Positions 1,457-25,933 of a stretch of DNA of 64,000 bases are shown here, piece after piece. The position numbers and the translations under genes were made by a program. Below the pieces are notes generated by a model, which was not told the origin of the DNA, did no database searches, and saw nothing but the letters and a program-made list of their open reading frames with translations. Source of the stretch: Bacteroidales bacterium (GTDB lineage Bacteria > Bacteroidota > Bacteroidia > Bacteroidales > UBA12077); the NCBI GenBank assembly GCA_016342685.1, contig JAEINU010000001.1, positions 1-64,000 of the forward strand, read 5' to 3'. Every line of letters begins with the position of its first letter. The stretch's first letter is position 1.

Positions 1457-1938
1457 ATTGGTTTAATGACTACAAAGATTATATTTTTATTTAATCCACC
1501 AACTTTTCAAAGTGATCCATATCTTTCCATAAAAGTTAAGTACCTAACTTCATTGAAAACGATTTTACGTTTCATAATGATTATTTAAATCTCAGACTAA
1601 ATTAATGTTTGATAGCCATTGTAGTGCTAAAATTGTAAACAAAATCATTAAATGTTTGTATATAAAATGTTTTCTTAACAATATGATACTTTTTAAAATA
1701 AGTTAATTAGGGATTATTAATTGAATATTTTATATATTTAATGTTTAAAAGGCATTATGTATCAGCTTATTTCTGAAATTTATATATTATTAATCAATAG
1801 AAATAATGCATTTGTCAAAAAAAGGCTCTGATTTACAATGTTTTGAAACTTTTTGGCATTTTACACTGTACATATTATTTAGTATAAGCTATTGTAAATG
1901 TGATTAGTATAGATTAATAATTAATGGTCATGATTATT

Positions 1939-7900: not shown

Positions 7901-10900
7901 TTGTGCCTTTAATTTTATCTGAGAATCTTACAATAAATACAAATTCAGAATTTGATGCAAATGGATTGGATTTAACAATAAAAGGTGATATGTTGGTTGA
8001 TGGAATTTTTACATCAAATCAAAATAGCACATATTTTACAGGAAGTGTTGCCCAACAAATTACAGGGAGTCCTGTTTTCTGGAATTTATATAAAACAAAT
8101 TCAAATTTATTAACATTAAATAATGATGTTGACGTAGATAATGAGCTCCATTTAGATGATGGTACTTTCAACGATGGAGATAATACCTTAAGCGTTCAGG
8201 GAAATACATGGATGGATATTACTCATACATGGGGAGGAACCAGTGATGGAATCTTATTGAATGGATCGAGTGAGCAGGTATTATTAGGTAATGGTATTTT
8301 TGGGAAACTATCGGTAAATAATAGTGCAGGAATATCTATCCCGCAAAACAATATATTTACAATTGATGGCGCCTTACAATTAGAAAATGGAGTTCTAGAT
8401 GTTGGGAAAAATCTTTTAATTATTGATGAGGATGCTATTGTAATTGAAAAAAATATTTTCTCTGAAAATAATATGATTCAGACAAACATTTCATTTACCG
8501 ATGCAGGTATTAAGAAATACTTCACGGCAATTATTCCTGCTGATAATTATAATTTTATATATCCACTTGGTTCAGAAGGAAAATACTCACCTATTGAATT
8601 GTCTATTGATAATGTGGATGCCGGAGGATCTATAAGAGTAAAAGCAGCAAACGAAATGCATCCTACTATTGTTAATGATGCAGAGCCCTGTAATGAAATT
8701 GTAGATACGCTAAATGTACTTAAATATCACTGGTTGATGGAAGCTGATAATATTAACGGTTTTACAGCCAACGCAAGTATGAAATATTACATTGAAGATT
8801 ATCAGGAGAATTCAGCATTATATGATGTGACAGATTATATTGCAGCCAGGTTGTTATGGGGGAGTACGCTCTGGAATAAATATGACCAGGCAAGTTTCGA
8901 TGAAGGAAACACCTTATTGAGATTTAGTTTTGCAGGTGATGATGATGATGGTATTAGCGGAGATTATACTGCAGGGGTAGAAGATCAAGGAGGTACTTGT
9001 GAAGGTGCTATTCCAGATGAGGTGCCTGCTTATATTAGTATTAGCGATGGAGATTGGACAGATGGTTCGATATGGGAAACATATCCTATTCCTGGTGGCT
9101 TTGTTCCATTAAACGGACCAAGAGGAGCTGTTGCAATTGTAGAGCACGAAGTTACCATTCCAAGTAATTATATTTTAAATTATAAAACAACTATAAATAG
9201 CACAGGTATAGTAAAAGTAGGCTCAACATTTGGACATCGTTTAGGAATTATAGAAGGAACAGGGACCTTACAATTAGAACGAGGAAATTTACCTGCTGGT
9301 ATTTATGATGACTTCTTTAGCAGAAGTGGTGGTACAATAGAGTTTACAGGAAATACAGATTATGATGTTCTTAGCGAAGTTGTTACTGTTCGTAATTTAA
9401 AGTTTACGGGAACTGGTGAACGTCGCTTACCAAATCTTGATTTTGAAGTGTTTGGTTTATTAACAATAGCTGGTGATGATGCTAATTTACATGTTATTAA
9501 TGAGCATGATAGAAACATGACTCTTGATAGTAATGTAGTGTTCACTCAAGGTAGTTTTGATGCAGGAATTGGCACATCAAAAGTAACAATGAATGGAACA
9601 TACAATCAGACTATAACAGGTAATTTTACAGATCCAAATGAGTTTTTAAATTTAGAAATAGACAATTCTGCAGGTGTTACCCTTGCTGGAAGTGTTGAAG
9701 TTGATGGAGTATTAGAATTTGTTGATGGTATAATCACAACAAGTGTAGCAAATATATTAATTGTTGATAACGCGGCAGAAACAACAGCTGTAGTTGGATA
9801 TAATTCATCGAATTATGTTGATGGACCAATGAGGAAGTTGATAAATAGTGGCGATGATTTTATTTTCCCTGTAGGAGATAATACCAGATATGGACAACTG
9901 GTTGTAACTAACGCAACAGCAAGTTCAGCTGGATATTGGGAATCTGAGTATTACAATGCAAATCCACACCCAACATATGATACTTCAAGTTATGCAGCTC
10001 CGTTAAATATGGTAAGTGGAAATGAATATTGGAGACTTAGTGGTCCTGAGTTAACAAGTAGCGCAGATGTTACTGTTCGATGGGATTCGCAAAGTGGATT
10101 GTCAGCAATGACAAGCGATAGGGTAAATAATTTACATATGGCTCAGTGGATAACAGGTACGCCAGATGAGTGGCAATCTGTTGGAACTGACGTTACTGAT
10201 GGAGGGGTTAATTCTGGAACTATAAAAAGTAATGCAGTAATTACATTAGAGAAGCATTATTTCACAATCGGCTCTAATGAATTAGCACCATTGCCAACCG
10301 CAACATTTATTAGCTCCGATATTTCTATTTGTGCAGGTCAGTCAACAAACTTGCAAATAGGATTAACAGGAGCCCCTAATTGGACAGTGACAATTGAAGA
10401 AGGTGGAGATAGTTATATTTTCCCTCCTCAGGCAACAAGTCCATTAACATTCTCAGTAGATAGTGCGGGTACATATACAATTACTGCCATTTCAGATATG
10501 AATGGTGCTGGAGTAGTATTTGGTAATGATGTTATTGTAACCGTAGCTCCTGTCCCAGCATTACAAGCAATAAATGGGGGAGGAACTTATTGTCAAGGTG
10601 CGAGCGGGCTTGCAATTGGATTGGATGGATCTGAGTTGGGTGTAAATTATCATCTTGTAGATCCACTAAGCGCAACTGTAAGTGTTGTTGCGGGAAGTGG
10701 AGGTGCAATAAGTTTTGGAACATACACCGATGCTGGCACATATACTATTGAAGCTTATAGCGCTATATATAGTGCATGTTCAACGCCATTAGGGACTGTT
10801 GATATAATAATGAATAATGCTCCAATTGTAAATATGTCTATCTTGAATGATACAATTTGTGATGGTGATGATCCTCAAATACAATTTGATTTTATTGCAG

Positions 10901-11172
10901 GGGCAGCTAATTTCAGTGTTACCATAACCGATGGAACAAATAGTGAAACAATAAATGGTATAGCTACAAACCCATATCAGTATTATTTACCAACGGTGAA
11001 ACCTCTGTGGAATGTAGCCGATGGGATTTCATCAACATATACATACACCATTACAAACATTACCGATTCCAATGGATGTTCAAATGTTGGTAGTAATACT
11101 GTCGATGTTGATGTATTTAAAGTGCCCTCTACTGGTCCAAATTACCATATTCCAAATGATTGGGGGAATTAA
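1939..11172 (+). CDS. Giant secreted/surface protein, ConA/LamG-like N-terminus, beta-helix-type repeats, Ig/PKD-like C-terminal region, ends TGPNYHIPNDWGN
   Basis: ~3077 aa; signal peptide MKKNRLIIRILIFISIIGNANISLLNAQ; LWFDANSL...DPVSEWTDRSGNNNHGTQ typical of Bacteroidota LamG-like domains. ORF track start 1924; internal ATG 1939 fits the signal peptide better. Confidence 0.9.
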   Translation: MKKNRLIIRILIFISIIGNANISLLNAQTGPGGVGNSDGSNGQPLNILWFDANSLLLNNNDPVSEWTDRSGNNNHGTQVDALRQPSFLTNTLNGYPVISFEDNAGGGGEEDFMNFDGTTLLNTDLTVIYVAARRDNGENFVLGGTTESSNQNLHFGWRNGTQNTCNHWGNDIYSNLIGDGSTYVGDGDPSDDYGIFINRLASGETAPQRRAFQNGTQIGIVNNPNQLSAYGGSAIARWRATPRYYDVNVAEVIFFTKALNAAQMQIINQYLNVKYDISITNDLFDPVSTYITDATGIGETNSEEHSSASSGGLYLTALGGLNNDDYIFVSHNDSSNNSTNFRIDSEVIAAGSIEAYNRIWFIDTVGTPAAEIAFDFSESLSDGLNPTNISNYTLLYRSNTTGNFTKVKNADGLKNGDQVYFNLTDLDLNTGYYTLGTEDNVNSPLEGVAGRTWYTLISGDWDDWEVWTLDPSGALPNNPDQLTPSTSSTNTADNVVIKTGRTVTVASDSLNHTSITIEGRLDLTTTTGHSFGEILGNGRILLATDNFPLGDASHFYTKGQGEGTVEYYGGSYKLNTAREYFDVEIILDNATDTITLLNDYDINGNLTISTGILKINDATDNQIINITVDGDVLVEANAKIFVGTGNSFATGNYQIGTAVMPEDDGLSYHDVFHQFTINGNFTNRGVVRFTNLNAPDYNTMATNGAVTVRLTGASNSEINLYNTTDFYNLIIDKGTDKTYKANLYSDNVNYFRIFGANSVGRRTAAPYSAEDPQIRKALFIYHGTLQLRGNVYIPSLSEGSQEGGNGDYAIGKNARFWMDGSNVTVYSTASDVSQITGFTAADTYTADGVQINSSNQAMSIYGEYRITNGTFGTRNSAGFIFWAAANAQIKIDGGTCNVAQMRSAGGTGGIASYSQTSGRVVVRGNRTEDGEVTSTYPLFGLESTDAVFAMSGGEIVVRDISGAAIGDFYIPSSDGNYNVTGGTVTIEVNETDEFDFYSTANIWNLTVKRYNDLITNTATFHLLNDVVVSNDLIIETPNTVTNTSLDVLVFMHDSSDVTIGRNFTIERGARYEWPERANNTWGAGWSINTTTFNGSENGTLYFTWHDDPTAGEEQNFWNFVVNKTNGASLTIASDEVNKTMTGISNRLIKPHGELRVESGTLNQGNFSVRAYGDIINKDVMFVYDHGVTPDNANLRIRPGNYTIESTIDAEFGLVKFNPGDGSVISLSNDTYIKRLNYHNGRLYLGAYNLKLDHLYNGRTDATYRANNGSVSRMFITDGNASDGGLSLLIHSNRRFTFPLGVGTDGVDVTVGGGSKFTPAELNITNFSDTGYIQVSVADKILATTDPTGGNILSYYWRVRHNGFNTSAEPTVVLDFYYNESDDDASDENSYRPGFVTDESPYTRNVDGNASGVDDANNIINFDNGGSGFTLQRANYTAGRQGRFNGPLRVYYSVTASGQYDWNDASRWFRDTPDTGPNFVPTDGSIVVIRGGARMNISSGTIADLAVVEFDHDYVTNPTPTPENVPRMQFHANGTYDVGNVKGTGMVSFNATRTINLTGDFGDFGSNLESYYLYFGGNATLNSIPFPIPNLMLEGATYAIDQNITINADFIIQGNSNTTPIQDIYVKRDLVLGYWRGGRLHFPPTGSSLTMTIDRNIDFTQYSPQGQQRDIIIDNPGVVSTLEHNLIVKGDIIHGPEDYYDFDLFNASDRPAVVLEFQGETAQRYYRTSNSIPDLYRVIVNKGTSQLNTFTFEDDFNLYGPTNGTTKALELQNGILKLDDIDIDIDLSSGGVDFEIPSTARLQVTQGTVNVYGDNTGIWLDGKLLIDGVNGIVDMINGAGNGNNYIEYSSSGNANIEITDGQLLIGSQIRRGLITEEGVLSFVQSGGEVQLGVRHGGDNDRAIFEILNAGSSFVHSNGDFILVNDYRAGSSIATTYFNPETAIILSGAEMQFGNASTLAGSEDFTLFAGKELMNVTVNTNASSTLTLDIVPLILSENLTINTNSEFDANGLDLTIKGDMLVDGIFTSNQNSTYFTGSVAQQITGSPVFWNLYKTNSNLLTLNNDVDVDNELHLDDGTFNDGDNTLSVQGNTWMDITHTWGGTSDGILLNGSSEQVLLGNGIFGKLSVNNSAGISIPQNNIFTIDGALQLENGVLDVGKNLLIIDEDAIVIEKNIFSENNMIQTNISFTDAGIKKYFTAIIPADNYNFIYPLGSEGKYSPIELSIDNVDAGGSIRVKAANEMHPTIVNDAEPCNEIVDTLNVLKYHWLMEADNINGFTANASMKYYIEDYQENSALYDVTDYIAARLLWGSTLWNKYDQASFDEGNTLLRFSFAGDDDDGISGDYTAGVEDQGGTCEGAIPDEVPAYISISDGDWTDGSIWETYPIPGGFVPLNGPRGAVAIVEHEVTIPSNYILNYKTTINSTGIVKVGSTFGHRLGIIEGTGTLQLERGNLPAGIYDDFFSRSGGTIEFTGNTDYDVLSEVVTVRNLKFTGTGERRLPNLDFEVFGLLTIAGDDANLHVINEHDRNMTLDSNVVFTQGSFDAGIGTSKVTMNGTYNQTITGNFTDPNEFLNLEIDNSAGVTLAGSVEVDGVLEFVDGIITTSVANILIVDNAAETTAVVGYNSSNYVDGPMRKLINSGDDFIFPVGDNTRYGQLVVTNATASSAGYWESEYYNANPHPTYDTSSYAAPLNMVSGNEYWRLSGPELTSSADVTVRWDSQSGLSAMTSDRVNNLHMAQWITGTPDEWQSVGTDVTDGGVNSGTIKSNAVITLEKHYFTIGSNELAPLPTATFISSDISICAGQSTNLQIGLTGAPNWTVTIEEGGDSYIFPPQATSPLTFSVDSAGTYTITAISDMNGAGVVFGNDVIVTVAPVPALQAINGGGTYCQGASGLAIGLDGSELGVNYHLVDPLSATVSVVAGSGGAISFGTYTDAGTYTIEAYSAIYSACSTPLGTVDIIMNNAPIVNMSILNDTICDGDDPQIQFDFIAGAANFSVTITDGTNSETINGIATNPYQYYLPTVKPLWNVADGISSTYTYTITNITDSNGCSNVGSNTVDVDVFKVPSTGPNYHIPNDWGN

Positions 11173-11193
11173 AAAGGATATATATTAGTTTTA

Positions 11194-11226
11194 AATAGGG
11201 TGGTAAACTGTTTTTATCACCCTATT
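11194..11226 (+). terminator. Hairpin terminator or attenuator after first giant gene
   Basis: aatagggtg...caccctatt perfect 9-bp stem; weak T-tract. Confidence 0.55.
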
Positions 11227-11421
11227 TATCTATTATTTAATGATGTTAATCAATTAAAATGGCATAGATATTTAAATGGATATTGAATAACCCACTGATT
11301 CTTTGTGAATTTAAATAATTTCTTTAATTTCACATGATTTTTCAAAAAGAACAAAACGTAAAAAGTTCCGTATAAATAATCATCAAAACGTATTTTTTTG
11401 TTATTACAATATTTAAATTCT

Positions 11422-14400
11422 ATGAATATTTTATATATAAATTGTAAAAAAGGCTATTTATTAATTATAACCTTGGTTTTATTATTAGTTCAATTTCCTA
11501 GCTTGAAAGCACAAGAACTATTATGGACGGAGGATTTTGAAGAGGCAGGTGCAGACACTTACACCTCAAATACAGCTAATCTTTCAGGTTTATCGAATGC
11601 ATGGAGTTACGAAAAAACAAATGCGGGAAGATTACGAATGTCAGCAGGGGCAGCTTATTCTAAAAGTGGAACCCATGCAGCTACATTAGATGTTAATGTA
11701 AATCGATCTCTTTCCGAAAATTATATTACAGTTGTTTTAGATATTAGTAACTATTCTGCGTTTACAAATATTGCACTGGGTTTTTCGTATATGGATCATG
11801 GTGATGAAGATAATACCAACGATAAAGTCTGGGTGCGAAGTGGTAACGATAATTCACAGCCTTGGGTTGAGGTTTATGATTTAGCACCTGAAGGTGTGAC
11901 TAATGGAAATTGGAATGATGTAACAGGAATTGATGTGACTACACCATTAGCAGGTCAGCCAGTAAGTAATTTTTTACAAATAAGATTTGGACAGCAAGAT
12001 AATTGGCCAACCACAAGCACAACTGGTAATGATGGTATCACCTTTGATGACATTACTTTGTCAGGTTATTCGGTTATTTGGGCAGAAGATTTTACTTATG
12101 GGAATGGAACGGTAACTGGGCAAGGAAGTCCAGCAATTGCAACTTGGACTGCAGATGGTGTTTCTGGTGGACTTGGAATAGCAGTTAATGGAGAGCAAAT
12201 GAGGGGACGTAATACAAGAAGTGCAAATCCGGATAATTCATTATGGTCGATTAATGCTGGTGATCCAATTGAAATAAGTGGTTTCAAAGATGTTAAAATT
12301 TCAGTAGATATTTCGGAGAATAGTAATCTGGAAGTTGCTGATTATATACAATTGCAATATAGTATTGATGGTGGTGCTTGGGTAAATTTTGATGTAAATG
12401 GATATCGAAATAATGAGTTCACGAGTGCAGTAGCTACACAGTCTGGGCTTTCAGGAAGTACACTTCGCATTCAAATTATTATGTATAATAATGCAGATAA
12501 AGAAAGATATTTCGCAGATAATATCAGGGTAACTGGGACTCCAGAAGTTGTTAATATGGGATCTGGAACAAGTTATTACTCCTATCAATCTGGTAATTGG
12601 GACGATGCAGGTACATGGACCCACGATCCGGGAGGAACTACTCAAACAGCGACAGATATCCCTAACTCTGGCGATTTTGTTGTTATTCTTGGAAGTAGAA
12701 CAGTAAGTTTAGATTCCGATGTTGATACAACTAATTTGGATATAGTAATTAACGAAGGTGCAATTCTTAATCTAACAACATTTCAATTCAATAATGATTT
12801 AGCTAGTCTTAGCGGACAAGGTACACTTAGGTTATCATCGGTTAACTTTCCAACGGTTGCAACAAATAATTTTGTAAACACAGGAGGTGGTACAACAGAA
12901 TACAACAATGCATCAAATTTTACTTTACCCGCAACTCAGTTAGTATATAATAATCTACGATTAAATGCATCTGGAGTTACAGCCACTCAGTTAAGTAATA
13001 TTGATTTAAACGGAGATTTACATATTAAGCAAGGTACTTACAGAATAAATGATAATAGCGTTGCTAGAAGACAATTAACAATAAATGGAAGTGTTCTTGT
13101 TGATAATGGTGCCTCAATAACAGTTGGATCTGGTAATACAATTGATGGTGATATTTCTGGCGGAACAGCACCATTCACAGATTATTATGATAAACAAACA
13201 CATAGAGTAGTTGTTAATGGAGATTTTACCAACAATGGTACGGTTAAATTTACAAATCAAAACTTTCCTGTTTTTAATGCTTTTCCAAACAATGGAGCAG
13301 CAACGGTCTATTTTATGGGGGCTACCGACAATACCTTAACTTGTAATAATACAACCGATTTTTATAATATTGTTCTTGATAAAGGAATAGATCAAACATT
13401 TAAATTAGTGGTCTATTCCAATGCATATGATCATTTTAGACTTTTCGGACGTAATTCCGAAGGTGGCGAAAACGGTGGAGCAAATCCTGATTTACGAAAG
13501 GCTCTTTGGATACGAACAGGGACACTTGAGTTACAGGGTTTAACCATAATACCATCTTTGACAGAAGGTGGAGGTGGAGGAACTCCAAATAGTGATTTTT
13601 ATATTCCTGTTAATGGAGCCTTGGTATTAAATGGTTCCGAAGTTGTAGTATTATCTACAGCAGATGACTATGAAGAGGTAAAAGCAGCTTATAATTTAAC
13701 ATTAGGAGGTACAGGAAGTGTTAACGGTGTTAATAAAGGAATATCGGCAAGTTCTTTTTCAATTTATGGGAAATTAGAAATTAATGATGGATATTTTTCT
13801 ACTCGAGAATGTGGTGGATTCGTTACTTGGGATTTAGCCTCTGGACAGTTTAATATAAATGGTGGTGTAGTTGATGCAAAGCAATTTAGAGCAGCTAGTG
13901 GTTCTTTAGGATTATCATCTTATAGTCAGTCGGGTGGTGAATTTATTTTACGTGGTCGTTTTCAAAGAATACCAACAAAATATGATAATGTTAGCGATTT
14001 AGTTAATGCTCCAATAAATACAACAAGAACTACCACCGGATTGGATGGTACAAAAGGCTCTTTTAATATAAATAATGTAGCAAATGTTTTTGCTATGTCT
14101 GGTGGTAAAATTACCATTTATGATGCTTCAGGTGCTGATGGTAAAGTGTTTGATGTTTTAGCTTCAACTGCAAATATTAACGTTACTGGAGGTACTTTAG
14201 AAATTATTCCTACAGATGGGTCAGGAGCTGAGCCGACAAACTTAATAATTACGTCGAATGCCGAATTAAATAATTTAACCATTAATAGACAAAGTGGGAC
14301 TTCAAACGTACAATTAAGTACATATCCATTAAATGTCTTAAGTAATCTAACATTAAGTTCTGGTACATTATTAGCAAATAATTTAAATGTAACTGTCGGT

Positions 14401-17400
14401 GGCGATTTTCTAATGGCTTCAGGAACTGCATACACTCCAGGAACAAACTGGACAACATTTAATGGCTTGGGAGATCAAAGTTTTGATATTAATATTGTAG
14501 GGGCATTAGCATTAAATAAGTTTAAGCTTGATAAACCTGCTGGGGCAACATTAATTTTCAAAGGAACACAATCAACTATTTCGATATCCGATTCATTAAC
14601 GATTCTAAAGGGTACTTTGGATGATGGTGGTAAAACATTAAATTTTGCTGGAACGAACTCTGAATCTTATTTATATAACTCAGGAATTCATTCAGGAACA
14701 GGAAAAATTGTTTTCAACGATAATGTTCCACAATTAATAACTGGTGATGGAACAGGTGTGTTCGGAAATATCGAATTAAATAATAATACAGGAACAGCAC
14801 CCGTTTACTTGGGAGTTTCTTGTACCATTAATGGTGAATTGACATTCTCGCAAGATAAATTATTCAATATTGGTGAATATAATTTAAAGTTAGGCTCATT
14901 AGCTTCAATAAACAATGCTGGCCAAAATAGATATATTCGATCAGATGGAAAAGCAGGAGATGGTGGAATTACTAAAGTTTATTCCGCATTAGCAAGTAGT
15001 TTTGATTTTCCGATTGGTGCACCTTCAACAAGTCATGCAAGTGCAAATTATACACCTGCATCATTATCTTTTGGAACTGCACCAACAAGTTACGGGAATA
15101 TTACGGTTGTGCCTGTGGGATATGAGCATCCTAATACAACTTCTAAAAATAGAAGTTTAACATATTTTTGGAGAGTAAAATCTGAGAGTTTCAATTTAGG
15201 CTCTGCAATAATCAATCATTCATACACATATTCCGAAAACGACGTTGTAGACAATGGTTCCGATCCAACTGAATCAGAATATATTGCGGCTATGTATAAC
15301 AATGTATCTTATACATGGACTAAAGAAACTGTTGCAGATGTTAATGCAACCACAAATGTTATAGGGGGAATTGGAACAAGTTATCAGGTATTAAATACAA
15401 TTGATGGTGAGTTTACAGCAGGAGATACTAATCCTAATGATCCCTTTGGAACACCAACTAAATTTTACAGTCGTGCAAATGCAAACTGGAATGTAAATTC
15501 TACATGGTCAAATACAGGTCATACAGGAGCAGCAGCTAGTTCAAGTCCGGGGGCTAATGATGTTGTAATAATTGGGAATAATAATACGGTTACATTAACA
15601 AAAAATGAGAATTGTGCAAGTCTTCAGATCGAAGCAGGTGCCACATTAGATATCTATACTTATACTGGAAGTGTTTTTAGTATTGTTCTTACACACCCAA
15701 ATGGTAATGGACTCTTTAGGGTTACAACTCCCGTTACACCTAACAATAGTATTCCTGGATTTTTCACATTTCCTTCGGGCGATTTTTCCGATTTTAATGT
15801 AAATTCTGGTACAACTGAATTTTACGATATTGATGGAACAGTTGGTGCTTTGTATATACTCCCAGCTAATATAAACCAATACGGAAACCTTATTGTAACT
15901 GCTAGAGGAGGGGATAATTTAGTAATGCCGAATAATGCTTATACCACGATATATGGAGATTTAACATGTACGGGAGATGCAACAACTGCATGGATTGCAA
16001 TGTCTTGGAATACAAACATAGCACCTTATTGGGATAACACTGCTTACAATCCCACCATTGAGAAAACTATAAATATAAAAGGTGATTTTAATATCAATGC
16101 AGGATCCTTTGAGTTTTTTAATGACAGAGCCCCACAGCATCTTATTGTTGAGGGTAATGTAAATGTTGCTGCAGGAGCAGTTTTAGAAATTTATCCTGCT
16201 TATCCTTTTGTAGCTCCAGTAGTTACGAATACAATGGAAATCGGAGGTTCATTGATTAATAATAATGATGTTACATTAAGTGCTTCAAGTGATGGTAATA
16301 TCTATAATATCCATACAACATTCTTTGGCGATAATTCAGCATCTATTACAAATAATACAGGTTCACCAACTACTATATTTAGTAATGTTACTATAAATAA
16401 AGGATCATCACAATCAGATACTTTAACTATTGATATTGGAGGAACACTTACTACTCCTACTGATAATTGGTTAACATTACAGAATGGAACATTAAAGTAT
16501 AGTCGAATAAATCCTTCGTCAGATTTTACAATTTCAAGAGCAACTCAATTTATAATCCCACCTACAGCAGGTTTGTACATCAATTACCCCAATAATGTTT
16601 CGAACAGAAATATCCTTATTGCTAATTCTAATTCCAACGATAATGATTTGTATTTAAACGGTAAATTATCGGTAATTGCAGGAAATGTTTATGTAGGTAA
16701 TACTGGGAATATAAGAAATAATGATATTGAATATTCTGGAGGGGGCGATGCAACAATTGATATACAAGGAGGTAATTTAATTGTAAATGGTCAGATTCGC
16801 AGAAATCCTGCAACCACTAGTGGAATTTTGAATTATACTCAAAGTGGAGGTCAAGTAATAATTAATGGTCAAAATGCTCTAGCAACTAACGCTAAACTTG
16901 AGGTTTGTAATGTAGGCAGTAATTTCGACATGTCTGGTGGTAGTTTAACAATTGTACGTGGTGGTGGAACAACATATGGCGATTTATATATTCGAGCCGA
17001 AAATAGCACGGTTACAGGTGGAGAGATTATCTTTACACAACTGCCAAACATAGGACCAATTGTTAATTCTGTACAAAATTATATTTTAGATGCAAATGTG
17101 CCTTTAAATCATCTAACTATTACAGGAAAAACTGCGGCAACAGCAAGAAATGCTACTGTTACCCTTTTAATAAGTCCATTAACTTTAAACGGTGACTTAA
17201 CAATAAGTAATAACAATAGTATTTTCGATGTGAATACAAATTATGATATTGATGTAACTGTTAAAGGAGGTTTTACAAATAATGGATTTTACAATCATTA
17301 TAATAATTTAACTACTTTTAGTGGGGGAGTTCAATCTATTCAGGGATCTACAGCAACTGATTTTTACGATCTGTTAGTTGATCCGGTTACTTCTCTGTCT

Positions 17401-20400
17401 TTAATTCGTGATATAACAATACATAATGATTTAGATCTTAATTCAGGACAATTATTAGGAAGTACATTTGATATAAATGTAGAGGGTAATCTAATTAATA
17501 ATGCCAATTACGATGGAGACTCTATTCAAGGAGGTGTAATTTTGAATGGTTCAAGTATTCAAAGTATTTCTGGTTCTGGAACATTTGGTCGTCTTGAAAT
17601 TGATAATGCATTTGGAGCAAGGATTCTTAATGATGTTACCTTGCAAAAAAACTTAAGACTAACAACAGGTATTTTAGATATAAATAGATATTTATTTACA
17701 CTTGGAGTAACTAGTATTATAGAGGGAAGTTCATTTGGTACCACTAAGATGATTTCTTCTGATGGAGTTTTTAGTGATGTTGGTTTAAGAAAATACTTCA
17801 ATAAGTATAATGATATTGCTGATACTTTAATATATCCAATAGGAACATCAGGTAAATATACGCCGGTTGATTTAAGATATACAAGCAATACAAATGTTGG
17901 TTATATCCGTATCAATAGCATTAATGATAATCACCCGGGTGTTCTTGATCCTGATAATGTGTTAGATTATTTCTGGGAGGTTGAGAGTAATGGGATAGCC
18001 GGATTTAATGGATCTTTTGATTTTAATTATTTAGAAGAAGATGTTCAACTTACAGGAGTTAATACGGAGGCTGATTATATTGCTGCTGCATTACACATAC
18101 CAGGGAGTTCTTGGTCTAAAATAGATAATGTCGATGAATCAAACAACATAATAACTTTTGATTATTCTGGTGTCGATAATTTAAGTGGAGAATATACGGC
18201 AGGTGTCGACCCTGCATTACCTCTTAATGTTCCTGAATACACAAGTATTAACGATGGAAAATGGTCCGTTGAAACAAATTGGGCGTGGACAGGTGGTGAT
18301 GCCTATGATTGTCCTGCTGGTGGTCCAAATGGATTTATTGTTACTATTGCTTCTGATGATACTATAACAACTGATGCAAATTATGCTTCAGCGTATAGGT
18401 TAAGTATTGAAGGGAAATTGAAAATTTCTTCTACAAGTTTTGGACATAATTTAGGTTCAGTTTCTGGTAACGGAATTTTATATCTCGAGAATGGAACTTT
18501 CCCTGCAGGACGATTTACTGACTTTCTGGATTGCTCAAATGGAGCAACATTGGAATACGGAGGAGTTTCAAATTATACAATAATATCTGATTTATACTCT
18601 TCTATTCCGAATCTGCATTTCACTGGAGGTGGAACAAGAACTCTTCCCAATAAGGATCTTACAATTTGTACTCAGTTATTAATAGATGGACCAGATCTTG
18701 ATAATAGTGTTAATAATCGTAAACTGACTATTCAAGGAACGATGGAGCGATACAATACAAGTACATTCATTAGTGGTTCTGGAGCTTCAGCGACAGTGAG
18801 TTTTGCAGGCTCTTCCGCTCAGACGATTGGAGGGGTATTAGGTAATTTTACTGGGGTAAATTCATTAAATAATCTGGAGATTAATAATTCTTCTGGATTA
18901 TCCATTAATAATGGAGGATCCGTTGAGGTAAAGAGAAATTTATTATTGACAAATGGTCTTATTTCAACAGCTGCATCGAATTCTCTGAAAATTACAAATA
19001 CAGATATTAATTCTGTTATTCCTGTAGGAGGGAATTCCGGTTCTTATGTAGATGGCCCTTTAATTAAAGATATTAATCAAGGAGATAGCTTTCTTTATCC
19101 AATTGGAAAAGGAACAGAAATTGGTAATAAAATAACTCTATCGTCGGTTCGTAATGGAACCATTTCATGGACAGCAGAGTATTTTACACCAAATACAACT
19201 TTCAATAATTATGCGAATCCATTAACCTATGTGAATTCAAAAGATTATTGGACTGTAAAAGCAGGTCCGGCCGATCAGGCAATAATTGGTTTAAAGTGGG
19301 ATGATGTTAGTGATTTAACTCCACTTATGACTGAAAATGGATTAAGTGATATGCGCGTAGCTGATTATAATACTGGAACCGAATGGACAGAAATAGGATC
19401 TTCAGCTTCAGGAGATAATAATAATGGAACGGTGACTACTTCCAGCGAAATATCATTGCCTGTGGGAGGATCTAGTGATTTTACAACCGCATGTATTAAT
19501 ATAACTAAACCTAGAGCAAGATTAAATCCGACTGGAGCAGTTTGTGGTGCTGATGGAATTCCAGTAACTTTTATATATTCAGCAGCCATACCGTTCAATT
19601 ATACATTGGATTATACCATTGATGGTGTTGCACAGCCACAGATAACAATTACTTCTGGCGAGGTTCCATATACATTAACAACACTAATTACTGGAACATA
19701 TAAGCTTAAAGCATTTACATATAACAATGGAGTTAATAATGGTGTAGTTGATCAAAGTGAGGTTATTGTTTACGACAATCCTACAGTAGCAAATGCAGGA
19801 ACGGATCAATCCATTTGCGGAGGCACAAGCGCTACATTGGATGGAAATGATCCAGCTCCATATGCAGGTCTCTGGACTATTATAAGTGGCGCTGGAGGCA
19901 CGGTTGTAACTCCAACATCTCCCACAAGTACTTTCAATGGAACAAATGGAACAACTTATACTTTGCGATGGACTATAACAAATGGTGGATGTGAATCTTC
20001 AAGGGATGTTGTGATTGATTTCCCAATTAATCCTCCAGTACCAGCGGTTTTTACAGCAAGTTCTGCAGAAGTATGTCAAGGACAATCAGGAGTGGTGTAT
20101 ACCGTTCCTAATGACCCAGGGGTTACATATAATTGGAGTTATAGTGGCTCAGGTCATACGATTAATGGAACAGGAAATTCTGTAACCTTAGATTTTGATA
20201 ATTCCGCTACAGGAGGAACATTAGGTGTTACATCTACAAATGGGTGTGGTATAAGTCTTCCTAGAGAGATTGCAATTAACGTGAATCCAATACCAACCAT
20301 AACTCTTGATGATCCTAATGTTCAAGTATGTCAAGGAGGAACTTCGGTTGATTTAGTTTATACAGCAAGTACGGGATTTCCCGATTTATATAGTATTAAT

Positions 20401-20892
20401 TTTGATGCAGTTGCTGAAGGTCAAGGTTTTGCTGATGTTTCTGATGTGGCTCTAATAGGAAGTCCTATATCTATAACTGTTCCAGGGGCTTCAAATTCAG
20501 GAACATATAATGGTATTCTAACTGTGGTAAATAGTGTTGCATCATGCATTAGTACAACATATCCAATAACCATTCAGATTGATGCAATTCCTGCCCCAAC
20601 AATTTCAGGTATAGATACAACCTGTGTTGGAAACAGTCTAATTTATACAACCGAAGGGAGTATGAATAATTATGTTTGGACAGTTGATGGTACATATGGG
20701 AATGTATCATTAGGAGCGGGTACAAATAGCATAACGGTTGATTGGACAAACTTTACGGGAATAGGTACACCAACAACAATAAATGTTACATATGATAATG
20801 CTGGATGTGTTCCTATATCTGATGGAGCCATAGATGTAATGGTTTTTAAAATCCCAGAAACAGGAAATACATATCACATACCGGAGAATTAA
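11422..20892 (+). CDS. Giant secreted/surface protein paralogous to the upstream one, ends TGNTYHIPEN
   Basis: ~3156 aa; signal peptide MNILYINCKKGYLLIITLVLLLVQFPSLKAQ; long co-linear similarity with first giant protein (e.g. NTTDFYNIVLDKGIDQTFK vs NTTDFYNLIIDKGTDKTYK). ORF track start 11398 is a TTG; ATG at 11422 preferred. Confidence 0.9.
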   Translation: MNILYINCKKGYLLIITLVLLLVQFPSLKAQELLWTEDFEEAGADTYTSNTANLSGLSNAWSYEKTNAGRLRMSAGAAYSKSGTHAATLDVNVNRSLSENYITVVLDISNYSAFTNIALGFSYMDHGDEDNTNDKVWVRSGNDNSQPWVEVYDLAPEGVTNGNWNDVTGIDVTTPLAGQPVSNFLQIRFGQQDNWPTTSTTGNDGITFDDITLSGYSVIWAEDFTYGNGTVTGQGSPAIATWTADGVSGGLGIAVNGEQMRGRNTRSANPDNSLWSINAGDPIEISGFKDVKISVDISENSNLEVADYIQLQYSIDGGAWVNFDVNGYRNNEFTSAVATQSGLSGSTLRIQIIMYNNADKERYFADNIRVTGTPEVVNMGSGTSYYSYQSGNWDDAGTWTHDPGGTTQTATDIPNSGDFVVILGSRTVSLDSDVDTTNLDIVINEGAILNLTTFQFNNDLASLSGQGTLRLSSVNFPTVATNNFVNTGGGTTEYNNASNFTLPATQLVYNNLRLNASGVTATQLSNIDLNGDLHIKQGTYRINDNSVARRQLTINGSVLVDNGASITVGSGNTIDGDISGGTAPFTDYYDKQTHRVVVNGDFTNNGTVKFTNQNFPVFNAFPNNGAATVYFMGATDNTLTCNNTTDFYNIVLDKGIDQTFKLVVYSNAYDHFRLFGRNSEGGENGGANPDLRKALWIRTGTLELQGLTIIPSLTEGGGGGTPNSDFYIPVNGALVLNGSEVVVLSTADDYEEVKAAYNLTLGGTGSVNGVNKGISASSFSIYGKLEINDGYFSTRECGGFVTWDLASGQFNINGGVVDAKQFRAASGSLGLSSYSQSGGEFILRGRFQRIPTKYDNVSDLVNAPINTTRTTTGLDGTKGSFNINNVANVFAMSGGKITIYDASGADGKVFDVLASTANINVTGGTLEIIPTDGSGAEPTNLIITSNAELNNLTINRQSGTSNVQLSTYPLNVLSNLTLSSGTLLANNLNVTVGGDFLMASGTAYTPGTNWTTFNGLGDQSFDINIVGALALNKFKLDKPAGATLIFKGTQSTISISDSLTILKGTLDDGGKTLNFAGTNSESYLYNSGIHSGTGKIVFNDNVPQLITGDGTGVFGNIELNNNTGTAPVYLGVSCTINGELTFSQDKLFNIGEYNLKLGSLASINNAGQNRYIRSDGKAGDGGITKVYSALASSFDFPIGAPSTSHASANYTPASLSFGTAPTSYGNITVVPVGYEHPNTTSKNRSLTYFWRVKSESFNLGSAIINHSYTYSENDVVDNGSDPTESEYIAAMYNNVSYTWTKETVADVNATTNVIGGIGTSYQVLNTIDGEFTAGDTNPNDPFGTPTKFYSRANANWNVNSTWSNTGHTGAAASSSPGANDVVIIGNNNTVTLTKNENCASLQIEAGATLDIYTYTGSVFSIVLTHPNGNGLFRVTTPVTPNNSIPGFFTFPSGDFSDFNVNSGTTEFYDIDGTVGALYILPANINQYGNLIVTARGGDNLVMPNNAYTTIYGDLTCTGDATTAWIAMSWNTNIAPYWDNTAYNPTIEKTINIKGDFNINAGSFEFFNDRAPQHLIVEGNVNVAAGAVLEIYPAYPFVAPVVTNTMEIGGSLINNNDVTLSASSDGNIYNIHTTFFGDNSASITNNTGSPTTIFSNVTINKGSSQSDTLTIDIGGTLTTPTDNWLTLQNGTLKYSRINPSSDFTISRATQFIIPPTAGLYINYPNNVSNRNILIANSNSNDNDLYLNGKLSVIAGNVYVGNTGNIRNNDIEYSGGGDATIDIQGGNLIVNGQIRRNPATTSGILNYTQSGGQVIINGQNALATNAKLEVCNVGSNFDMSGGSLTIVRGGGTTYGDLYIRAENSTVTGGEIIFTQLPNIGPIVNSVQNYILDANVPLNHLTITGKTAATARNATVTLLISPLTLNGDLTISNNNSIFDVNTNYDIDVTVKGGFTNNGFYNHYNNLTTFSGGVQSIQGSTATDFYDLLVDPVTSLSLIRDITIHNDLDLNSGQLLGSTFDINVEGNLINNANYDGDSIQGGVILNGSSIQSISGSGTFGRLEIDNAFGARILNDVTLQKNLRLTTGILDINRYLFTLGVTSIIEGSSFGTTKMISSDGVFSDVGLRKYFNKYNDIADTLIYPIGTSGKYTPVDLRYTSNTNVGYIRINSINDNHPGVLDPDNVLDYFWEVESNGIAGFNGSFDFNYLEEDVQLTGVNTEADYIAAALHIPGSSWSKIDNVDESNNIITFDYSGVDNLSGEYTAGVDPALPLNVPEYTSINDGKWSVETNWAWTGGDAYDCPAGGPNGFIVTIASDDTITTDANYASAYRLSIEGKLKISSTSFGHNLGSVSGNGILYLENGTFPAGRFTDFLDCSNGATLEYGGVSNYTIISDLYSSIPNLHFTGGGTRTLPNKDLTICTQLLIDGPDLDNSVNNRKLTIQGTMERYNTSTFISGSGASATVSFAGSSAQTIGGVLGNFTGVNSLNNLEINNSSGLSINNGGSVEVKRNLLLTNGLISTAASNSLKITNTDINSVIPVGGNSGSYVDGPLIKDINQGDSFLYPIGKGTEIGNKITLSSVRNGTISWTAEYFTPNTTFNNYANPLTYVNSKDYWTVKAGPADQAIIGLKWDDVSDLTPLMTENGLSDMRVADYNTGTEWTEIGSSASGDNNNGTVTTSSEISLPVGGSSDFTTACINITKPRARLNPTGAVCGADGIPVTFIYSAAIPFNYTLDYTIDGVAQPQITITSGEVPYTLTTLITGTYKLKAFTYNNGVNNGVVDQSEVIVYDNPTVANAGTDQSICGGTSATLDGNDPAPYAGLWTIISGAGGTVVTPTSPTSTFNGTNGTTYTLRWTITNGGCESSRDVVIDFPINPPVPAVFTASSAEVCQGQSGVVYTVPNDPGVTYNWSYSGSGHTINGTGNSVTLDFDNSATGGTLGVTSTNGCGISLPREIAINVNPIPTITLDDPNVQVCQGGTSVDLVYTASTGFPDLYSINFDAVAEGQGFADVSDVALIGSPISITVPGASNSGTYNGILTVVNSVASCISTTYPITIQIDAIPAPTISGIDTTCVGNSLIYTTEGSMNNYVWTVDGTYGNVSLGAGTNSITVDWTNFTGIGTPTTINVTYDNAGCVPISDGAIDVMVFKIPETGNTYHIPEN

Positions 20893-21162
20893 AATGAAAA
20901 GCTTACATAGGCACTTAAAAAAACTTATTAACAATTATCAAATTATTTAGATTGAATAATTTGAATATGTTAATAAAATAGGTATTAATACTTAAATTGA
21001 TTTAACTAAATGGTTGTAATTTAGTGATTAATAAAGAAACGCATTTTGAAATACATAGATTTACATCAATATTCTAACTTATAAGGATACTTTAGGATTA
21101 AGAATAATTATATCACCAATAAAAATGGGTTAATGGAACAAATTGATATATTAACAAAAAGC

Positions 21163-21222
21163 CTTTGGCATTAATCATTAAAAATGATACTTTTATGGGT
21201 CGAAAGAGCCGGTTAATCAAAG
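21163..21222 (+). ncRNA. Candidate structured 5' leader element upstream of the 321-aa protein gene
   Basis: CTTTG (21163-21167)/CAAAG (21218-21222) can enclose hairpins atcatt-aaa-aatgat (21174-21188) and gggtc-GAAA-gagcc (21197-21210). Confidence 0.35.
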
Positions 21223-21357
21223 CCAGATAGTTAAACTGAAACTAAACAATGCTTAAATCGTTAAATAAATAGAATAAAAACTGTATTACTAAAATAACAA
21301 ACTATAATATAATACAGAACATAAAGAAAAATAAATACTAATTTAAACTTTTAGATC

Positions 21358-22323
21358 ATGAAAAAAATGAACTTTTTAAAAATCGCTTTCACATTCGTTT
21401 TAGCTCTTGTTATGACTGCTGCTATTGCACAGAATGACCCTGCTGATTACGGATTAATTAGCACAGATGGTGATGTTTCATATGTTACTTTAGATGCAAC
21501 AATTCCATTTTATGTAACTCCAGATGCTAACTATCATCCAACTTGGGCTGCATTTTCTACTAATTTAACAGCTGGTTTCACTTGGAATTACTATACTGAC
21601 CTTAGCTGGACTATTGGAACTGAATTAGCATTAGCTATAACTGATAACTACGTAGAAATTACAGCAAATACAGTTGGGTCTTATCCAATTAATGTAAAAG
21701 AAGAAGCTCCAGCTGCTTTTGGTGGTTGTGAAGATGCTACTGGTGTAGATTTTACTGTTAATGTTATTGCTAAGCCAACTGCTGATATTACTGGTGCTGC
21801 TGCAAATAATGTATGGAACACAACAACTGCAGGTCACGAATATTATATTTGTGGTGATGCCCTTGCTGAAAACATTACTATTGGTATAACAGAAACAGGT
21901 GTACCTGCTGCTTTAGCTAGTTATGCTTACTCGGTGCAGAAAAGAGTTGTTAATATTAATAATTTAGGTGTTGAAACTGGAGCTGCTACAACAACTACTC
22001 CTGTTGATCGTACTATTGCTACTAAAAATGCAACTGCAACTATTAATGGTGGTACTGAAGTATTTACTACTGCTGCTATGCCTGTTGTAGGTGGTTTAAG
22101 AACAAAATATGAATTTACTATGCAAAAAGCAACTGATGCTGCTGCTGCTGTTGCAGAAGGTATCGTTTCGGCTGTTTCTCATAAATCAGATTATTTAACT
22201 GTTGCTGGCGCTGGTAATATTACAGGATATCCATTTACAGGAACTGTTACTGTAGTTTATATTGTTAACCCTGCTCCAACAACTGGTCCTATTTATCATA
22301 TTCCAACTACAGATTTCTTATAG
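21358..22323 (+). CDS. Secreted protein of unknown function, Ala/Thr-rich, ends TTGPIYHIPTTDFL
   Basis: Signal peptide MKKMNFLKIAFTFVLALVMTAAIAQ; shares C-terminal TGPxYHIP motif with the two giant proteins. Confidence 0.85.
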   Translation: MKKMNFLKIAFTFVLALVMTAAIAQNDPADYGLISTDGDVSYVTLDATIPFYVTPDANYHPTWAAFSTNLTAGFTWNYYTDLSWTIGTELALAITDNYVEITANTVGSYPINVKEEAPAAFGGCEDATGVDFTVNVIAKPTADITGAAANNVWNTTTAGHEYYICGDALAENITIGITETGVPAALASYAYSVQKRVVNINNLGVETGAATTTTPVDRTIATKNATATINGGTEVFTTAAMPVVGGLRTKYEFTMQKATDAAAAVAEGIVSAVSHKSDYLTVAGAGNITGYPFTGTVTVVYIVNPAPTTGPIYHIPTTDFL

Positions 22324-22414: not shown

Positions 22415-23416
22415 TTGAAAAAATATATTTACATATTGTTTTTAATTGTTTCGCTAATAAGCTTTAGCTTCAATAGTTATGCTCAGGATTTACCAATAGC
22501 ATGTGGAGGTAGTGTTGAAAGATATCGTGTTGCAGGAGATAATGGTAATTCAGATTTTTATTGGGAAGTTACCGGAGGTGAAATCCTAAGATTTTTTAAC
22601 GATTCTGTTGATATTAAGTGGAGTATTGTAGCTGGAGTTAGAACGATTACAGTTACAGAAAAGAATTTGTATGGTTGCGAAGGTGACCCTTATTCTCAAA
22701 CATTAATGGTAAGTGCTCCTTTTGTAGATATTGGATTAGATGAGGATATTTGTGCTGGAGAAACTTATGAATTTATTACATCAAGCTCTGATGTAACCTC
22801 TTATTTATGGCAAGATAATGAAACAAGCAGTGAGACTTTTATTGCTTCAGTATCTGGTGATTATTGGGTAAGAGTAACAGATGAGTATGGTTGTGCAAAT
22901 ACCGATACCGCAACATTAATAGTTCATGATTTACCTTTGGTCGATTTAGGAGCAGATACAACTCTCTGTGCTGGAGAACCAGGTATCACATTTGACGTTG
23001 CCGACTTCGGAGAAAATTATGAATGGTTTAATGATGAAATCAACTCTATTTATACTGCTGAGTATAATGGAGAAAAACAAGAAATATGGGTAAAAGTGAC
23101 TGATCAATATGGATGTGTTGGTATAGATACTGTATTGGTTGGCTTATGCGAAATTTTTATTCCGAATACGATTACTCCTAATGGTGATAATTATAATGAT
23201 GATTGGGAAATTGAAGCCCTTCAGGCATTTGATGATGTAACTGTTGATGTGTATAATCGTTGGGGAGAAAGAGTTTATCATTCTAAAAAGTATGATGAAC
23301 CTTGGAATGGAACAAATTTAAAAGGTAAAAAATTACCAATGGACTCTTATTATTATGTAATAGATCTACATAATGGAGATGAGCCTATTGTTGGAACAGT
23401 GACAATAATTCGCTAG
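22415..23416 (+). CDS. Gliding-motility-associated (CHU_C) C-terminal domain protein, T9SS type B sorting domain
   Basis: C-terminus IFIPNTITPNGDNYNDDWEI...VDVYNRWGERVYHSKKYDEPWNGT...GTVTIIR is the CHU_C signature; PKD/Ig-like repeats; TTG start. Confidence 0.93.
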   Translation: MKKYIYILFLIVSLISFSFNSYAQDLPIACGGSVERYRVAGDNGNSDFYWEVTGGEILRFFNDSVDIKWSIVAGVRTITVTEKNLYGCEGDPYSQTLMVSAPFVDIGLDEDICAGETYEFITSSSDVTSYLWQDNETSSETFIASVSGDYWVRVTDEYGCANTDTATLIVHDLPLVDLGADTTLCAGEPGITFDVADFGENYEWFNDEINSIYTAEYNGEKQEIWVKVTDQYGCVGIDTVLVGLCEIFIPNTITPNGDNYNDDWEIEALQAFDDVTVDVYNRWGERVYHSKKYDEPWNGTNLKGKKLPMDSYYYVIDLHNGDEPIVGTVTIIR

Positions 23417-23460
23417 TTTCTTGGAATTTATAAGGAGATTGACTTGTTTTGTGGAGGAAA

Positions 23461-24438
23461 ATGAAAAAAATATTAACAATATTATCTATCTTATTATTGA
23501 CCGTATGTATTGCAAAGAGTCAGCAAGAGCCTGTCTTTAGTCAATATACTATGAATCAATTTCTCATTAACCCTGCCTTTGCTGGTAGTGAGGGATATAC
23601 TTCATTTAATCTTACAGCTCGACAACAATGGTTAGGTTTTGAGGGGGCGCCAATGACCCAGGCAATTAGTGGTCAGACCCGAATCAGTAAAACAAGTTAC
23701 GTTTCTAAATCTAGATCCGTTAAAAAAAGAATTAAGAAAAGAAGACCAAGCGGTAAAATTGGTATAGGAGGATACCTTTATAACGATCAGAATGGACCAA
23801 TTGGTAGAACAGGACTTGAAATAAGTTATGCCTATCATTTATTTGTTAATGATGGGCAATTATCTTTAGGATTATCCCTATCGGCATACCAGTTTAGAGT
23901 AAATACAGCAGATTTAGTTGGAGTTGACGAGGCAGATCCACTTTTAGGAAGTGCTCGTGAAAGCATGTTTATCCCAGACGGTTCTGTTGGAGTTTATTAT
24001 ACATTCTTACCATTTTATATTGGTTTATCAGCAAAAAATTTGTTTCAAGCAAGCGTTAAGTTCGGCTCTGATAATAGTTTCGGCGATTATCAGCAATTAA
24101 GACATTACTATCTTACGACTGGTTATAAATATGATATGGGTAATGATTTCGAGATTGAACCCTCGATTTTATTAAAAACAACAGAATTGTTTAATTTACA
24201 AGCTGATGTTACATTAAAGGGGTATTACAAAAGAGATTATTGGTTAGGGTTTTCATATAGAACAGGAAACGCTTTTATAACAATGGTCGGGGTTAAAGTG
24301 GATCGTTTGTACTTCGGATACGCTTTTGACTATTCATTAAATGATATTCAGAGAATTAGTTATGGATCTCATGAAATTATGATTGGACTTAAATTCGGTG
24401 ATAATTCTAGAAGATATAGATGGTTAAATAGATTCTAA
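23461..24438 (+). CDS. PorP/SprF family type IX secretion-associated outer membrane protein
   Basis: QQEPVFSQYTMNQFLINPAFAGSEGYTSFNLTARQQWLGFEGAPMTQ...; ORF track start 23449 is TTG, ATG at 23461 precedes signal peptide. Confidence 0.95.
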   Translation: MKKILTILSILLLTVCIAKSQQEPVFSQYTMNQFLINPAFAGSEGYTSFNLTARQQWLGFEGAPMTQAISGQTRISKTSYVSKSRSVKKRIKKRRPSGKIGIGGYLYNDQNGPIGRTGLEISYAYHLFVNDGQLSLGLSLSAYQFRVNTADLVGVDEADPLLGSARESMFIPDGSVGVYYTFLPFYIGLSAKNLFQASVKFGSDNSFGDYQQLRHYYLTTGYKYDMGNDFEIEPSILLKTTELFNLQADVTLKGYYKRDYWLGFSYRTGNAFITMVGVKVDRLYFGYAFDYSLNDIQRISYGSHEIMIGLKFGDNSRRYRWLNRF

Positions 24439-24461: not shown

Positions 24462-24490
24462 ATGCTTTGTAATCTTCAAAGCATTTTTTT
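24462..24490 (+). terminator. Rho-independent terminator after porP/sprF-like gene
   Basis: atgctttg-taatctt-caaagcat followed by T-tract. Confidence 0.85.
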
Positions 24491-24582: not shown

Positions 24583-25923
24583 ATGAAAAAAATAATTGTA
24601 TTAATAATAATTATAGTATTGTTGGCAATTGCATTCTTCATTGTTAAACCAAGGATTTCTAATAATTATTATATTAAAGGTCAGCAGAGTGTGGATTCTT
24701 TAAAATATGAAATGGCAGTAGACTTACTTTCAAAATCTATTAAATTTAATAAGAAGAATAGTCAAGCCTTGTTGGCAAGAGGAAATTCATATTATCAATT
24801 GAATGAATTTGAAAATGCTTTGAATGATTTTAATTTATTATTGGTGCTCGAAGAAAATAGTTTTGAAGGATTATTTGGTAAAGGTTTGGTTCTTATAAAA
24901 ATGAAGGATTATCTTAAAGCAACAGAAAGTCTAAAAAAAGCAAATAGCCTGAATAATAACAACTCAGATCTTTATTATTTCTTAGGATATTCTAAATTGG
25001 TATTAACCGAATATGAGGAGGCTCTTGAATATTTAAATAAAGCAATTAAATTAGAATCTAACTATGCCGATGCATATCATCAGAGAGGTATCGTAAAAGC
25101 CAATTTAGGTGATCTTGAAGGATCAATTGAGGATTTTAATGATGCTTTAAAGTTAGATAAAGATAATTTAGACGCATATCAGCGACGAGTTAAATATCGT
25201 ATAAATAAAGCGGATTATAATGGAGCAATTGAAGATTACAATTCGATAATTGAATTAGATTCAGAAAATCAAGATGCATATTATCAGCGTGGGTACTTTA
25301 AGTTACAAATCAAAGATTTTAATGGAGCTATTAAAGATTTTGATAAATCTATACAGATAAATTCAAAAGATGCTAAATCGTATAAAAAGCGAGGGAATGC
25401 TAAGTTTGCATTAAAAGAATACGACGAGGCAATAAAAGATTACGATAAATCTTCACAATTGGATATTAACGATGAAGAACCTCATTATCGAAAAGGAACA
25501 GCATTAATTTATAAGTCGGAATTAACCGCAGCGGTAAAATGCTTTAATAAAGCTATTTCCTTAAAAAAAGATTATTATGAGGTCTACTATATTCGTGGAG
25601 TTGCGCAAGCAATGCAAAGTAAATACGAATTATCATTAAAAGATTTTGATCTTGCAATAAAATACAATAAAAGTTTTTATGACGCATATCTGGGGCGTGC
25701 AACTTCTTTAGGTATGCTTGAAAAGCATAATTTAGCTATTGATGATTACAATTTCTATATTAAGCATATTACAAACAATGGCAATGCATATATAAATAGA
25801 GGTGTTTCTAGAATAAACATTGAGGATTTCGATGGTGGGTGCGCTGACTTTAAAAAGGCATTAGATCTTGGAGTAGAAAAAGCTCAGGATATGTTGAACA
25901 TCTATTGCACCTCATCTAATTAA
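24583..25923 (+). CDS. Tetratricopeptide repeat protein, membrane-anchored N-terminus
   Basis: Repeated ANLGDLEGSIEDFNDALKLDKDN-type TPR units; N-terminal TM segment. Confidence 0.93.
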   Translation: MKKIIVLIIIIVLLAIAFFIVKPRISNNYYIKGQQSVDSLKYEMAVDLLSKSIKFNKKNSQALLARGNSYYQLNEFENALNDFNLLLVLEENSFEGLFGKGLVLIKMKDYLKATESLKKANSLNNNNSDLYYFLGYSKLVLTEYEEALEYLNKAIKLESNYADAYHQRGIVKANLGDLEGSIEDFNDALKLDKDNLDAYQRRVKYRINKADYNGAIEDYNSIIELDSENQDAYYQRGYFKLQIKDFNGAIKDFDKSIQINSKDAKSYKKRGNAKFALKEYDEAIKDYDKSSQLDINDEEPHYRKGTALIYKSELTAAVKCFNKAISLKKDYYEVYYIRGVAQAMQSKYELSLKDFDLAIKYNKSFYDAYLGRATSLGMLEKHNLAIDDYNFYIKHITNNGNAYINRGVSRINIEDFDGGCADFKKALDLGVEKAQDMLNIYCTSSN

Positions 25924-25933
25924 TAAAATTATT

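Follow-up and report, generated by a model that had tools for sequence, protein, structure and literature searches.

Three apparently exported proteins encoded next to one another in a Bacteroidales genome end in a common short tail, which, judging from sequence comparisons, appears to be an undescribed address tag used in the assembly of a structure on the cell surface. The DNA that was analyzed ("the window") is a stretch of 64,000 nucleotides, positions 1 to 64,000 of the forward strand of contig JAEINU010000001.1 (GenBank assembly GCA_016342685.1). Two of the proteins, P1 and P2, are giants, and the third, P3, has 321 residues; the genes that follow P3 encode a CHU_C protein of the type IX secretion system (T9SS) and a PorP/SprF-family carrier. 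The same tail closes large and small exported proteins in many uncultured Bacteroidales, and it is confined to genomes that have this P3–CHU_C–(PorP) locus. The reading preferred here, to which we assign a probability of about 0.6, is that the tail, short and fixed in position at the C-terminus, is a sorting or docking signal; it would direct its bearers to a surface assembly that depends on the T9SS and in which the CHU_C protein, seated on its own PorP, is the anchor.

Sequence, position and conservation of the tail

The three proteins and their tails are located as follows.

1924-11172, + strand: P1, 3,082 residues, with a signal-peptide-like N-terminus, repeats, and C-terminal immunoglobulin-like (Ig-like) domains; tail PSTGPNYHIPNDWGN
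11107-11169, + strand: C-terminal tail of P1 (tail profile, E=3.5e-10)
11398-20892, + strand: P2, an open reading frame (ORF) of 3,164 residues, an exported giant with PKD_6/Ig-like C-terminal domains; tail PETGNTYHIPEN
20836-20889, + strand: C-terminal tail of P2 (tail profile, E=9.8e-5)
21358-22323, + strand: P3, 321 residues, exported, with two Ig-like domains, a member of a conserved family; tail PTTGPIYHIPTTDFL
22258-22314, + strand: C-terminal tail of P3 (tail profile, E=5.1e-9)

An earlier reading of the window (the original prediction) had described a shared tail, TG-x-x-YHIP, on the two giants and the 321-residue protein. The tail was found where it had been placed: a degenerate DNA pattern for TGxxYHIP has only three sites in the 4.77-Mb genome, namely the ends of P1, P2 and P3, and the reversed control pattern had zero matches in the whole 4.77-Mb genome. 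The ORFs of P1 (1924-11172), P2 (11398-20892) and P3 (21358-22323) end in VDVFKVPSTGPNYHIPNDWGN, IDVMVFKIPETGNTYHIPEN and VYIVNPAPTTGPIYHIPTTDFL, respectively, each followed by the stop codon. All three termini have the form P-x-T-G-x-x-Y-H-I-P immediately 5' of the stop codon, and the final residues before it are VPSTGPNYHIPNDWGN (P1), IPETGNTYHIPEN (P2) and APTTGPIYHIPTTDFL (P3). The P2 ORF begins at TTG; a possible ATG start is located at 11422.

The wording of the motif had to be amended. In an alignment of giants and P3 proteins from many families, the conserved core was P-x-T-G-P-x-Y-H-[ILV]-x-N; P, T, G and H did not vary at all, and Y and N hardly did. The P after YHI, although present in all three proteins of the window, was not conserved. 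For the position count, all distinct open-frame matches to P-x-T-G-x-x-[YH]-H-[ILV] in all fetched loci were used (n=85). The motif lay at most 12 residues from the stop in 83 of these, and H-[ILV] stood exactly six residues before the stop in 63 of the 83 C-terminal copies; the two internal matches were both within unrelated proteins. Simple chance as the origin of the tail was ruled out by the genome-wide pattern search and this position count. Conservation is concentrated in the tail as well: P3 residues 307–315 are on average 94% conserved, compared to 39% for body residues 26–300, and 65% is the maximum for any nine consecutive residues of the body.

The N-termini of P1–P3 contain hydrophobic segments and are signal-peptide-like, as judged from sequence with no dedicated predictor. 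As had been claimed, no T9SS sorting domain was detected in the three proteins at E<=1 in Pfam or NCBIfam, which leaves the tail outside the described T9SS C-terminal domain (CTD) families in those libraries. None of the three has a transmembrane-like segment within its final 60 residues. A literature search on the tail peptide strings, and on YHIP together with type IX secretion, returned no T9SS-related paper.

In the AlphaFold2 model of P3, two Ig-like regions were predicted (mean predicted local distance difference test score, 81), and the tail follows the last strand (298–304) without secondary structure, its confidence dropping to <=65. In the model of the C-terminal 300 residues of P1, the tail likewise comes after the final Ig strand, is nearly devoid of secondary structure and shows falling confidence. 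The predicted tails of P3 and P1 are thus compatible with a free peptide. Comparison of P3 to the PDB with Foldseek gave no specific relative, only generic multi-Ig matches (template-modelling score, normalized to the query, 0.16–0.32), and no relative of the P3 family was found among PDB chains using hmmsearch.

In profile comparisons with the tails removed, the Ig-like domains of P3 were weakly similar to those of the giants. Because this similarity is present even without the tails, remote common descent of P3 and the giants from an Ig-Ig-tail ancestor is possible. The final domains that precede the tail differ among giants, being only 20–45% identical to that of P1. An ISL3-family transposase gene (PF01610, E=1.2e-54) is located beside the giant genes, at window positions 112-1095.

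Co-occurrence of the tail and the P3 locus

A P3 profile detected relatives in 13 of 20 congeneric genomes. With a profile made from 22 diverse members (A6), and with a best E<=1e-13 defined as a clear relative, 26 of the 295 genomes sampled from the order were positive. In a sample of 396 genomes from the phylum, A6 had no full-length match outside the window's own genome; the weak matches there were internal Ig-like domains of large proteins.

A first tail profile (A3, 34 columns) also matched internal Ig-domain strands, and a 21-column profile (A8) was used instead. It matched 28 of the 295 genomes of the order, of which 26 are exactly the P3-positive set; the other two (G111 and G199) are chance matches located elsewhere than at the end of a protein. 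Tail proteins besides P3 occurred in 19/26 P3-positive and 0/269 P3-negative genomes (Fisher p about 2e-24, or 3e-22 with the two chance matches counted in). In the phylum-wide draw, 6/396 genomes matched the tail profile, strongly in the window's own genome only and weakly and partially in the other five.

Tail proteins need not be encoded at the locus. The check proposed with the original prediction was whether matches are C-terminal, behind signal peptides and next to PorP and CHU_C genes; the first two points stood, but the giants are on contigs other than that of P3 in G104, G062, G161, G207 and Perlabentimonas gracilis. One genome (G218) encodes five tail proteins in addition to P3.

Co-variation of the tails of giants and P3

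A giant and the P3 of the same genome share their endings, also where the two genes are unlinked. Examples of the shared endings are as follows.

...NNVAK/...NSVAK: genome G218; family f94
TGE: genome G297; family f83
Short endings ...PNN/PNQ: families f38, f65 and f44
YHLPNL/YHLPNLP: loci L093 and L107
N-x-W-x-N: the window's own genus

The similarity of same-genome tails after P-x-T averaged 42.2, compared to 27.6 (standard deviation, 2.4) when the P3 tails were re-dealt among families, and none of 5,000 such shuffles reached the observed value. For the residues after YHI alone, same-genome similarity was 13.5 vs. 4.0 for the shuffled tails. Co-variation of this kind is predicted by a common receptor or by gene conversion, not by chance or by the inheritance of two separate domains.

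The CHU_C–PorP neighbors and their transcription unit

The remaining features of the locus are these.

21162-21195 (approximate), + strand: promoter/operator-like element TTTGGCATTAATCATTAAAAATGATACTTTTA, ~34 bases with the dyad ATCATT/AATGAT, ~165 bases upstream of P3
22415-23416, + strand: CHU_C (T9SS type B) protein, 333 residues, with PKD-like N-terminal domains and a type B CTD
23449-24438, + strand: PorP/SprF-family outer-membrane carrier (TIGR03519, E=5.5e-80), ending RRYRWLNRF
24462-24484, + strand: terminator-like hairpin 3' of PorP, closing the P3–CHU_C–PorP unit

The identification of the two genes after P3 as a CHU_C/PorP pair was confirmed by the TIGR03519 match and by a match of the protein at 22415-23416 to TIGR04131 (E=1.5e-17). 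The CHU_C protein itself does not have the YHI tail. In a phylogenetic tree, the PorPs of P3 loci, along with a duplicate from within one family and a long branch of uncertain placement, cluster apart from the other sampled PorPs, including three of the window's own genome; most of them terminate in GDxxRRYRWLNR[FY]. No relative of this PorP was found among PDB chains using phmmer. SprA (PF14349) is encoded in 6/6 tail-positive genomes tested, with E=2.1e-173 in the window's own genome.

The core of the element upstream of P3 is kept in 7 aligned genus members, and the element is present as a single copy in the window (chance expectation, 0.00). Because this conserved element stands upstream of P3 and a terminator-like hairpin follows PorP, the three genes appear, from the sequence, to form their own transcription unit. 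No Rfam family was matched within the window. Right after PorP (24583-26998) are genes for a tetratricopeptide-repeat protein and a beta-lactamase-family protein, and similar genes occur there in some genus members.

At all of the loci read that were uncut by a contig end, P3 is upstream of the CHU_C gene, either directly or with one or more small tail proteins or an insertion in between. PorP follows in nearly all uncut loci (exceptions are, e.g., L083 and L200). At least 23 P3 loci are in named genomes, comprising Bacteroidales, Marinilabiliales and Bacteroidetes metagenome-assembled genomes and one cultured strain, Perlabentimonas gracilis M08_MB. Besides the P3–CHU_C–PorP locus, this strain encodes two more tail proteins, whose open frames have 3,272 and 524 codons.

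Several loci contain additional genes. A second small tail protein with the variant tail PTPxTxPIxHIxN is located between P3 and CHU_C in several families (L077, L078, L080, L083, L198 and L200). By sequence inspection, a HEPN/MNT toxin-antitoxin-like gene pair lies between a truncated and an intact CHU_C copy in G016 (L017, 2136-2812), and a probable DNA cytosine methyltransferase gene lies upstream of a giant gene in G011 (L014, 5094-7066), where the neighbor may be its restriction enzyme.

Wider relatives

Distant P3-like proteins in the order have other endings, which are alike to those of their upstream neighbors. Examples of the paired endings are as follows.

...LIEHD and ...LQIQHD: G080
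...MIEHE and ...LQILHD: G059
...IWIED and ...IWHD: G044

Distant P3-like or CHU_C-linked proteins whose short endings are shared with the upstream neighbor were seen in L187 (842-4106), L194 (971-4395), L190 (8218-10705), L188 (4047-6229) and L195 (9036-11754). These endings (I-x-H-D/N and similar) could represent divergent versions of one and the same system. Suggested by such divergent relatives, a short tail of the form P-x-T-x-x-I-[YWF]-H-[DN]-stop was rejected as a general signal of the phylum: it was found in 2/148 genomes, as against two control matches.

Proposed mechanism and alternatives

We infer that the tail binds a component of the P3–CHU_C–PorP locus and serves surface display. 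The tail proteins of a genome (one to several adhesin-like giants and the small P3) would be expected to reach the periplasm by the Sec route, since their N-termini are signal-peptide-like. The tail would then route them to an assembly at the cell surface that depends on the T9SS and has the CHU_C protein as its foundation. A cognate PorP/SprF takes proteins with a type B CTD over from SprA and retains them at the surface (PMC9143113, PMC12618676); by analogy to this behavior, the 333-residue CHU_C protein, the proposed anchor, would be exported by means of its type B domain, and its own PorP would keep it in the outer membrane. P3 is probably an adaptor or stalk subunit, and the giants would be the variable, exposed parts of the assembly. 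The earlier hypothesis that the tail docks onto the T9SS/PorP machinery or the CHU_C protein is supported in outline, though not as to the candidate receptor or the putative fiber or coat, by the C-terminal position of the tail, the signal-peptide-like N-termini of its bearers, its confinement to genomes with the locus and its lack of membership in a described CTD family of the libraries searched.

Several points weigh against this proposal. The tail profile was built in part from the tested genomes, so divergent tails may be missed, and 7 P3-positive genomes had no other tail protein at this sensitivity. The genomes are related, and between-family shuffles leave some phylogenetic signal in the co-variation. 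The similarity of the Ig-like domains of P3 and the giants would let the tail be an inherited domain end, though that does not explain its excess conservation. Finally, if the tail is taken to be a docking joint that acts during or after export, no account is given of the giants' own export.

Under one alternative, which we regard as somewhat unlikely, the tail acts by itself as a T9SS export signal, a fourth kind, and is read directly by the PorP of the locus. That PorP would then bring the tail proteins as well as the CHU_C protein out of SprA, and the tail proteins would need no other CTD. P1–P3 and the relatives of P3 lack a type A, type B or other catalogued CTD, yet look exported; the tail is fixed to the C-terminus after an Ig-like domain, and type A CTDs are likewise C-terminal beta-sandwiches. 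The PorPs of P3 loci are, moreover, a group of their own, and a single PorP is able to serve several substrates (PMC12618676). However, the known T9SS signals are folded domains of about 50–235 residues that are recognized over a large surface (PMC10994853, PMC12618676, PMC11969387), not 15-residue peptides, and the site on PorP would be expected to be occupied by the CHU_C domain.

As a special case of docking, the tail could be the joint between the subunits of a fiber, with a giant at the tip, P3 as the stalk and the CHU_C protein as the base, each tail docking into the next subunit in a donor-strand or pilus-like manner. The proposed base has no tail while all of the proposed distal subunits do, some lineages add small proteins with the variant tail between P3 and CHU_C, and P3 has a separate, conserved promoter-like element. 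On the other hand, a Pro/Gly-rich motif that is predicted to be unstructured does not resemble a beta donor strand, P3 showed no recognizable incomplete Ig fold, and no pilin homology came up in the PDB comparisons; such a fiber is deemed unlikely. Under ordinary paralogy, the giants and P3 would have a C-terminal Ig-like domain in common by duplication, the tail being just the last strand and terminus of that domain. This would agree with the weak similarity of the tail-less Ig profiles, but it is quite improbable given the 94% vs. 39% conservation of tail and body, the very different last domains that the tail follows among giants, and endings that co-vary by genome, which neutral divergence does not give; the original claims that P3 otherwise looks unrelated to the giants and that simple paralogy is unlikely were nevertheless both too strong, since a remote Ig-Ig-tail ancestor is possible.

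A further step beyond the preferred sorting or docking signal is taken tentatively, at clearly less than even odds: the tail may constitute a new class of T9SS signal, a short peptide as opposed to a folded CTD, for which a PorP or CHU_C protein would serve as the dedicated receptor, such that one small locus exports and displays several giants encoded anywhere in the genome.

To our knowledge, no path across the outer membrane is recognized for the 2,000–5,000-residue proteins of these Bacteroidales. If the proposal is true, the sorting of giants would be explained by a short tag at their C-terminus that goes with a single locus, annotators could find such cargo by P-x-T-G-P-x-Y-H-[ILV]-x-N near a stop codon, and the known set of T9SS-linked C-terminal signals grows. 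A cultured carrier, P. gracilis M08_MB, exists.

Comparison with known systems

In LPXTG/sortase and type V pilus systems, a short C-terminal feature is common to the subunits of one surface structure. In contrast to an LPXTG signal, the motif of the tail is followed by neither a hydrophobic segment nor a basic terminus; the proteins end 3–8 residues past H-[ILV]. With regard to type V pili, neither Foldseek nor the PDB sequence search revealed pilin homology for P3.

Type A (TIGR04183) and type C (ChiA, cl41395) CTDs resemble the tail in the proposed C-terminal sorting, and the tail, too, ends an Ig-like region. The sequence motifs of type A CTDs differ from it. The type A models (TIGR04183/PF18962) had no match in P1–P3 at E<=1 and matched 0/22 P3 homologues at E<=0.1, in which no NCBIfam sorting domain was found either; 1/14 giant C-termini matched, only at E=0.029. 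No model named as type C, a CTD that corresponds to the ~100-residue C-terminal region of ChiA, was among the NCBIfam/Pfam matches of P1–P3.

The type B CTD (CHU_C, PF13585/TIGR04131; SprB–SprF and PG1035–PorP) is likewise a C-terminal signal on exported surface proteins with a PorP/SprF gene adjacent, and the 333-residue CHU_C protein of the locus is a true member. Unlike this CTD, the tail has ~15–20 residues, matches no CTD model and sits on proteins without CHU_C: TIGR04131/PF13585 had no match in P1–P3, and the neighboring CHU_C protein alone matched. Also unlike type B, several tail proteins per genome go with one locus.

The sprC-sprD-sprB-sprF gliding operon of Flavobacterium johnsoniae shares with the window exported proteins next to a PorP/SprF carrier and a giant surface adhesin. 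SprF has a Cys-X-Cys tail (PMC12635249), whereas the PorP described here lacks it and ends in RRYRWLNRF. The giant SprB itself ends in CHU_C; in the window, it is the tail that terminates the giants, and a separate protein of 333 residues has the CHU_C domain.

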